This document shows, in pieces, positions 7,626 to 19,764 of a stretch of DNA of 20,706 bases. The notes under the pieces are model-generated. The model was not told the origin of the DNA. It saw only the letters and a list, made by a program, of their open reading frames with translations, and searched no databases. Made by a program: the position numbers and the translations under genes. This DNA is from a virus. Positions within the stretch are counted from its first letter, which is position 1, and each line of letters opens with the position of its first letter. The stretch lies in IMG/VR virus record IMGVR_UViG_3300013285_000931, positions 1-20,706 of that record; one strand, 5' to 3'.

Positions 7626-7685
7626 TTATAAATAAAAGTGCCAGTCGCGATGCTACCAACATCCACTGACTCTAACAGTTTATAA
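7626..7685 (+). promoter_or_regulatory. Late promoter inside RBS-flanking hairpin of HNH gene 1
   Basis: A perfect TATAAATA (7627-7634) is the 5' arm of a nested hairpin. TTATAAA (7626-7632) pairs with TTTATAA (7679-7685), AGTC (7643-7646) with GACT (7668-7671), and GATG (7649-7652) with CATC (7660-7663). The outer 3' arm ends inside the AAGGA ribosome binding site at 7684-7688. A transcript starting at the late promoter would lack the 5' arm, leaving the site free. Confidence 0.6.
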
Positions 7686-7698
7686 GGAACTATCAGCC

Positions 7699-8415
7699 AT
7701 GTATTTACAAAACAAATACTCCAAGTATTATTTTAACATCATCAATAGAGCAAAGTCAAGAGAAATCGCTCCAAACACCTATACCGAAAAACATCATATT
7801 ATTCCAAAAAGTTGTGGCGGAGATAATTCTTCTGCCAATTTGATTAAACTTACTGCCCGAGAACATTTTATATGTCACTTATTATTACCAAAAATGACAG
7901 AGGGAAAAGTTAAAATTAAAATGACTCATGCCGCTTGGCTTATGTGTTGTAAAAATCAAAATGGTATGAGAGATTATAAAATTACATCGCATCTATACGA
8001 AGCGCTAAGAAAGAATCATTCCAAGATTTTAGAAAAGAAAATAGGGATTCTAAATCATAATTACGGAAAAAAAACCGGACGAACTAAAGATGACTTTACC
8101 CCAGAATGGAAGGAAAACATTTCTAAATCTAAAAAAGGTGTAATTAAAGGTGAAAAGAATCCAATGTTTGGTAAAACACATAACACGGAAACTCGTGCTA
8201 AATTATCAGCTACTCGTAAAGCAAGAGCTGGAACCCCTGGCTGGAATGTTAGGCCACCGTGCAGTGACGAAAAAGCTAATAAGATTAAATTAGCTAATAT
8301 GGGCAAACGATGGGTTCATAACATAGCAACTAAAGAACGAAAATATATAGATCCGTTATTAGTTGCTGATTATGTGACTATAGGTTGGGAAATAGGACTA
8401 GGACCTAAATCTTAA
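7699..8415 (+). CDS. Free-standing HNH homing endonuclease with NUMOD3-like repeats
   Basis: The 238-residue protein has an HNH core at residues 31-60: KHHIIPKSCGG (H32, H33), then SANLIKLT (N48) and REHFICH (H56/H60). A NUMOD3-type DNA-binding stretch with short Gly/Lys-rich repeats (GKKTGR.., GEKNPMFGKTHNTETRAKLS) follows at about 120-175. The C-terminal WVHN...YVTIGWEIG module is shared by many phage HNH proteins and, loosely, by the other HNH gene here. It nicks or cuts DNA to spread its own gene. It is on the opposite strand to its neighbours, is A-rich and Lys-rich, has its own late promoter, and its TAA shares a TTAA with the bS21 stop. AAGGA lies about 10 bases before the ATG. Confidence 0.9.
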   Translation: MYLQNKYSKYYFNIINRAKSREIAPNTYTEKHHIIPKSCGGDNSSANLIKLTAREHFICHLLLPKMTEGKVKIKMTHAAWLMCCKNQNGMRDYKITSHLYEALRKNHSKILEKKIGILNHNYGKKTGRTKDDFTPEWKENISKSKKGVIKGEKNPMFGKTHNTETRAKLSATRKARAGTPGWNVRPPCSDEKANKIKLANMGKRWVHNIATKERKYIDPLLVADYVTIGWEIGLGPKS

Positions 8416-19725: not shown

Positions 19726-19764
19726 ATGCTCCTATTAGGATAAAGTATTTATCCTTTGGAGCAT
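19726..19764 (-). promoter_or_regulatory. Late promoter inside RBS-occluding hairpin of HNH gene 2
   Basis: The transcript would fold as two stacked perfect stems. ATGCTCC (19758-19764 on the minus strand) pairs with GGAGCAT (19726-19732), and inside it GGATAAA pairs with TTTATCC (19738-19744 and 19748-19754) around a 3-base loop. GGAGCAT contains the Shine-Dalgarno of the HNH ATG at 19722. The late motif GATAAATACT (19744-19753) is in the inner 5' arm, so a late transcript would start after the 5' arms and leave the site free. Confidence 0.72.

Follow-up and report, generated by a model that had tools for sequence, protein, structure and literature searches.

The leader of a mobile HNH gene in a T4-like aquatic phage holds a candidate late promoter inside a ribosome-site hairpin

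Introduction

Does a homing endonuclease gene that settles among the genes of a phage bring along the timing of its own expression? The question is raised by an HNH gene on the minus strand of a viral sequence of 20,706 nucleotides (IMG/VR record IMGVR_UViG_3300013285_000931, positions 1 to 20,706; hereafter the window). So far, delayed expression of homing endonucleases is known from a handful of T4-type phages that infect laboratory hosts: a review lists I-TevI, I-TevII, I-TevIII, SegB and Aeh1 MobE (PMC2988022), and a second source adds the genes e, soc and 49 (PMC3014915). The original prediction proposed the same design for the segment 19726-19764 of the window, with a late promoter embedded in a hairpin that hides the ribosome-binding site.

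We consider it very probable that this leader is a portable late timing switch of the I-TevI kind. In this reading, a T4-like aquatic phage received the mobile HNH gene in its nrdA-aldolase-nrdB run, at the point where the aldolase gene ends. RNA reading through from upstream would hold both outer arms of the hairpin and so lock GGAG and AUG into base pairs, which would keep the gene silent. Late polymerase would start at GATAAATA, inside the hairpin, and produce an RNA without the 5′ arm, whose ribosome site would be open and from which the endonuclease would be made. Our analysis establishes the stem, the motif and its positional bias, the folding energies, the compensatory changes and the joint movement of leader and gene; where the late RNA starts, that it is made late and that the long RNA stays silent are inferences.

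Results and discussion

The endonuclease gene and its insertion site

The HNH gene occupies positions 19722-19018 of the minus strand (stop codon at 19017-19015) and encodes a protein of 235 amino acids with a Pfam HNH_3 domain (E = 2.7e-9). The gene (19722-19015) also matches phrog_12324, 'intron-like DNA endonuclease' (E = 2.1e-22), and its product shares a catalytic domain with I-TevIII and the HNH enzymes of phrog_12324 (38% identity, residues 6-132). We compared the window with seven phage contigs bearing the HNH gene, 65-85% identical, which gives eight leaders in all. The motif DIHHIDG...NN...N..H is invariant in the eight homologues, and dN between the window gene and the other seven is about 0.1 of dS. 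Together with the occupied and empty sites and the homing scar described below, the domain matches identify the product as a putative homing endonuclease.

Immediately upstream lies a gene of the class II aldolase/adducin type (Pfam Aldolase_II; 20431-19775, minus strand), itself preceded by the end of the gene for the large subunit of ribonucleotide reductase. The aldolase stop codon and the HNH start codon are separated by 52 nucleotides, which form the leader. All seven homologous genes are likewise located downstream of an aldolase gene. The HNH gene is free-standing, between the aldolase gene and nrdB (L002, L004) or other genes; Rfam detects no intron in the window, and the gene, unlike I-TevIII proper, is not encoded in a group I intron of nrdB. 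Just downstream of the HNH gene, the window contains a perfect sigma-70 promoter (TTGACA-18-TATAAT, 12/12; 18981-18952, minus strand), which presumably drives the genes beyond it early in infection.

Leader and endonuclease gene travel together. Of 80 related aldolase loci, 79 have neither endonuclease nor leader, the aldolase gene being followed directly by nrdB (often with an overlapping TAATG) or by other genes; the eightieth, L110, is the contig of L005, which does bear the endonuclease. When 2.9 million contigs were searched with the sequence pattern of the leader, only endonuclease-bearing contigs were matched. We rejected the idea that the leader is ancestral intergenic DNA, since it is missing from relatives without the HNH gene. 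The unit fits precisely into the aldolase-nrdB junction of L002 and L004, where it recreates the TAATG overlap. In L003, positions 287-1720 bear a homing scar: the aldolase, mostly 47-73% identical to that of the window, rises abruptly to 90% identity over the final 30 codons; downstream of the endonuclease, and fused to it in frame, lies another aldolase C-terminus, a diverged one (MKHICKIVLASNKH-stop). Judging from the occupied and empty sites, the insertion site is the 3′ end of the aldolase gene, and these sites and the L003 scar together make this 3′ end the likely homing target. The switch would thus belong to the mobile unit, not be borrowed from the insertion site, so that delayed expression would be a selected, portable trait of a selfish gene.

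Anatomy of the leader

On the minus strand, the leader runs from 5′ to 3′ through ACATTT, ATGCTCC, AAA, GGATAAA, TAC, TTTATCC, TAATA, GGAGCAT and GAT to the start codon ATG. As originally predicted, it contains two perfect stems of seven base pairs, one of which includes the Shine-Dalgarno sequence. In the outer stem (7/7 pairs), delimited by sequence, folding and compensatory changes, the anti-Shine-Dalgarno arm ATGCTCC (19764-19758) pairs with GGAGCAT (19732-19726), which holds GGAG at 19732-19729; the fold extends past this stem, an upstream CAU pairing with the AUG. The inner stem, nested within the outer one and delimited by folding, pairs GGATAAA (19754-19748) with TTTATCC (19744-19738) in 7/7 pairs, around a loop at 19747-19745.

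The late motif had been placed within the inner 5′ arm. The motif GATAAATA (19753-19746) does overlap this arm, but it spans arm and loop and is not confined to the arm. A late transcript would start at about 19740-19738, six nucleotides past the end of the motif and within the inner 3′ arm. The promoter would therefore lie inside the hairpin, and its RNA would lack the 5′ arm.

The importance given to the inner stem turned out to be overstated. Its 5′ arm is not conserved, the stem is imperfect in most relatives, and it is gone in L006, although the motif and the outer stem persist there; the conserved part of the leader consists of the outer stem and the motif. A leader peptide encoded by a short ORF over the stem (ATGCTCCAAAGG...TAA) was also discarded, this ORF having no Shine-Dalgarno sequence and not being conserved (in L002 it is reduced to ATG CTT TAA). 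No known RNA family was recognized at the Rfam gathering threshold, and matches at E values up to 1 were at chance level or unrelated.

The promoter within the hairpin

We counted ATAAATA in four contigs. Of 82 copies, 43 fall in non-coding DNA no more than 80 nucleotides upstream of a gene start on the same strand, and two do so on the wrong strand; these counts are approximate, because the gene calls simply took the longest ORF. Control heptamers of equal composition score far lower, with the exception of overlapping shifts of ATAAATA itself. In a 278-kb relative (G008) that has the same aldolase-nrdB junction and encodes a homologue of the late sigma factor gp55, the count is 20 on the same strand versus 0 on the other. 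The gp55 family (phrog_234) is present in the related contigs G007-G011 and was not found in the partial contigs bearing the HNH gene. This strand-specific placement marks ATAAATA as a genuine promoter motif in these phages, and (N)ATAAATA as a putative T4-type late promoter. The core ATAAATA is exact in seven of the eight leaders, with GATATATA at the same place in L007.

The promoter in the hairpin could instead be recognized by the host sigma-70 factor (TTTACA followed by TAAATA or AATACT) rather than by gp55, in which case the leader would still choose between transcripts, but not specifically late in infection. The invariance of TTACA in the eight leaders speaks for this, as does the overlap of the late site with TTTACA-18-AATACT (9/12 matches, 18-nucleotide spacing) and the presence of CTTACA-17-TATATT in L007, which has no ATAAATA. 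However, sigma-70 matches are no commoner in the region than in shuffled sequences (5 versus 4.8), the -10 box is poor in most leaders, and the conserved TTTTACAT takes part in the fold as well, pairing with the region of the start codon. ATAAATA, kept in 7/8 leaders, is in addition a genome-wide upstream motif. We regard a sigma-70 promoter as unlikely.

Two further features were observed behind late motifs. Several genes begin with similar peptides, MRAREF or MRINELL (G001:7109, G001:34365 and window 2675 on the minus strand), which suggests a conserved N-terminal signal. By eye, ATAAATA motifs also directly precede tRNA-looking sequences at G003:22372 and G003:27684.

Conservation of the outer stem in relatives

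The outer stem is kept by all seven homologues, and 55 of the 56 pairs in the eight leaders are standard. Its arms have changed together in L002 (ATGCTTT/AAGGCAT), in which two C-G pairs have become U-A, and in L007 (ATGCTCA/TGAGCAT), in which a C-G pair has become A-U; G-U pairs occur in L002, L003, L004, L005 and L006. These compensatory changes and G-U wobbles argue for an RNA rather than a DNA structure. When the 3′ arms were permuted among the leaders, 1.8% of all permutations paired as well as the real arrangement, a test that is weak because it has only eight sequences to work with. Compared with the window gene, the homologues have strongly diverged synonymous sites (dS 0.7-2.6), and the leader alignment averages 83% column identity, so that the conservation of the leader reflects selection and not recent copying.

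The same data bear on the possibility that the inverted repeat is a DNA operator at which the endonuclease represses its own promoter. I-TevI does bind an operator overlapping its own late promoter (PMC2988022), and autorepression would be compatible with a late timing switch. Nevertheless, the G-U pairs in 5/8 leaders break the symmetry of the DNA while keeping the RNA pairing, and the stem always covers the ribosome site; an operator is, in our judgement, a rather improbable account of the repeat.

Still less probable is a translational coupling to the aldolase gene without any late restriction, in which ribosomes ending at the aldolase stop codon open the hairpin. The outer 5′ arm begins 10 nucleotides past this stop, and a ribosome ending there (19775) would come near the arm and could open it briefly, but the stem would re-form once the ribosome is released. 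Coupling would also leave unexplained why a promoter motif is conserved between the two arms.

Accessibility of the ribosome site

The comparison of long and late RNAs by folding, proposed with the original prediction, gave a clear difference. Two RNAs were folded, the long read-through RNA and a short one that begins six nucleotides past the motif. Freeing the ribosome site, taken as six bases, costs 13.0 kcal/mol in the former and 1.0 in the latter. In the seven homologues, the corresponding values range from 5.4 to 11.2 kcal/mol (long) versus 0.1 to 2.2 (short). In the read-through RNA, the Shine-Dalgarno sequence is thus predicted to be sequestered by a stable stem. When the sequence upstream of the presumed transcription start was shuffled, none of 300 shuffles was as hard to open (z = 5.0), and 0/300 shuffles reached the real opening energy in six of the eight leaders. 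A chance or neutral palindrome, favoured by nothing more than the AT-rich context, is hardly credible in view of these shuffles and of the compensatory changes in relatives, and neither is a transcription terminator, no T-run following the stem and no intrinsic terminator being called here on the minus strand.

We also ranked 44 sites with the late motif, taken from the window and from three related contigs, and the leader of the HNH gene comes first in sequestration. Only four of the 44 sequester the ribosome site at the 1% level, two of these four belonging to the same HNH gene family. Late promoters here thus do not generally sequester the ribosome site, nor does the hairpin simply come along with having a late promoter in an AT-rich genome. 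Two other genes without assigned function show the same design, a late motif within a hairpin that covers the Shine-Dalgarno sequence: L149 1620-1655 (G001), where the hairpin reads CTGCTCTCCC...GGGAGAGCAG, and L156 12781-12815 (G003).

Relation to known systems

The T4 I-TevI precedent invoked from the start held up well. In I-TevI, the ribosome site lies in a stable hairpin, read-through RNA folds and stays silent, the late RNA lacks the 5′ arm and is translated (PMC2988022), and ATAAATA begins inside the hairpin at -30 from the ATG, the spacing found in the window. As a positive control, the same calculation gave 12.3 kcal/mol for the long and 0.55 for the short I-TevI RNA, close to the values of the window. 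I-TevI differs in belonging to the GIY-YIG family and in being carried by an intron (in td), whereas the HNH gene is free-standing; beyond the late motif, we saw no similarity between the two leaders. The I-TevI-type reading is supported in that it agrees with everything that can be tested from sequence.

The closest sequence relatives in isolated phages are I-TevIII and its homologues of nrdB introns (38% identity over about 54%). They are linked to nrdB and also present a hairpin over the ribosome site (7.8 versus 1.4-1.8 kcal/mol when trimmed), but they are intron-borne, with another leader sequence and a TATAAT-like promoter box. The MobE genes of Aeh1 and T4 are described as free-standing HNH genes in or beside nrdA/nrdB, like the gene studied here, and they differ in that the neighbour here is an aldolase gene. 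In Aeh1 MobE, a hairpin over the ribosome site lowers translation, with a similar promoter arrangement (PMC2988022, PMC3014915); for the leader described here, compensatory evolution is seen over eight phages. In the T4 late genes e, soc and 49, a hairpin hides the ribosome site in early read-through RNA, and the late RNA of gene e starts inside it (PMC3014915). These are resident phage genes, however, whereas the mobile HNH gene brings its own leader. The mechanism would thus be of a kind already known from I-TevI, I-TevIII and Aeh1 MobE, in a new instance: the same design is now found in uncultivated freshwater phages, with an RNA stem supported by compensatory evolution.

A second leader before endonuclease genes

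The other endonuclease gene of the window (7699-8415, plus strand) is preceded by a different structured RNA leader (7638-7697, plus strand), which is also found before more distant HNH relatives of the minus-strand gene. This leader of about 57 nucleotides, ending in CAGC before the ATG, was recovered in 95 distinct copies from many aquatic phage contigs. It starts about five nucleotides past a late motif (exactly five in 60/91) and consists of a helix P1, a conserved internal loop UCGCG/CCA, a helix P2, CUCUA, a small ribosome-site hairpin and CAGC-AUG. Covariation is strong: in 50 sequences, 97% of the P1 cells are paired, and four of the six P1 pairs vary in both partners, whereas the whole structure is paired in 87% of cells versus 30-46% in slid controls. 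Since the copies were gathered by a sequence pattern, the positions that it specifies are conserved in part by construction; the pattern did not include the helices.

The second leader is absent from Rfam 15, a small literature search found no description of it, and the window copy has no BLAST match in isolated phages, so that it is apparently an undescribed structured RNA element. A consensus-like query gave one weak match, in an isolated Rhizobium phage; a covariance model supports this copy, which is outside the training set (E = 1.3e-6) and is followed by a homing endonuclease of phrog_314. In a set of 70 copies, most of the genes that follow encode homing endonucleases, which belong to several families (NUMOD3/HNH, HNH_3, GIY-YIG, SegE-like).

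Unlike the sequestering hairpin, the second leader appears in folding calculations to keep the ribosome site open (mean 2.1 kcal/mol versus 3.8 with the 5′ part shuffled). Protein binding is one possible role; stabilization or insulation of the late RNA would be others. Common to unrelated endonuclease families, it would represent a new RNA family with a testable role. We lean towards the view that portable leaders for late expression are a feature of the whole class of homing endonuclease genes in aquatic T4-like phages, and that they come in at least two unrelated kinds, the sequestering hairpin and the 57-nucleotide RNA.

A stem-loop of the form TGTAG...GCC...GG...CTACA, resembling P1, was also observed straight after a late motif in the window (6739-6672, minus strand), upstream of a dnaK-looking gene; stem-loops of this form also follow late motifs at G001:32315 and G002:4656, and all three stand before other genes than the second leader does.
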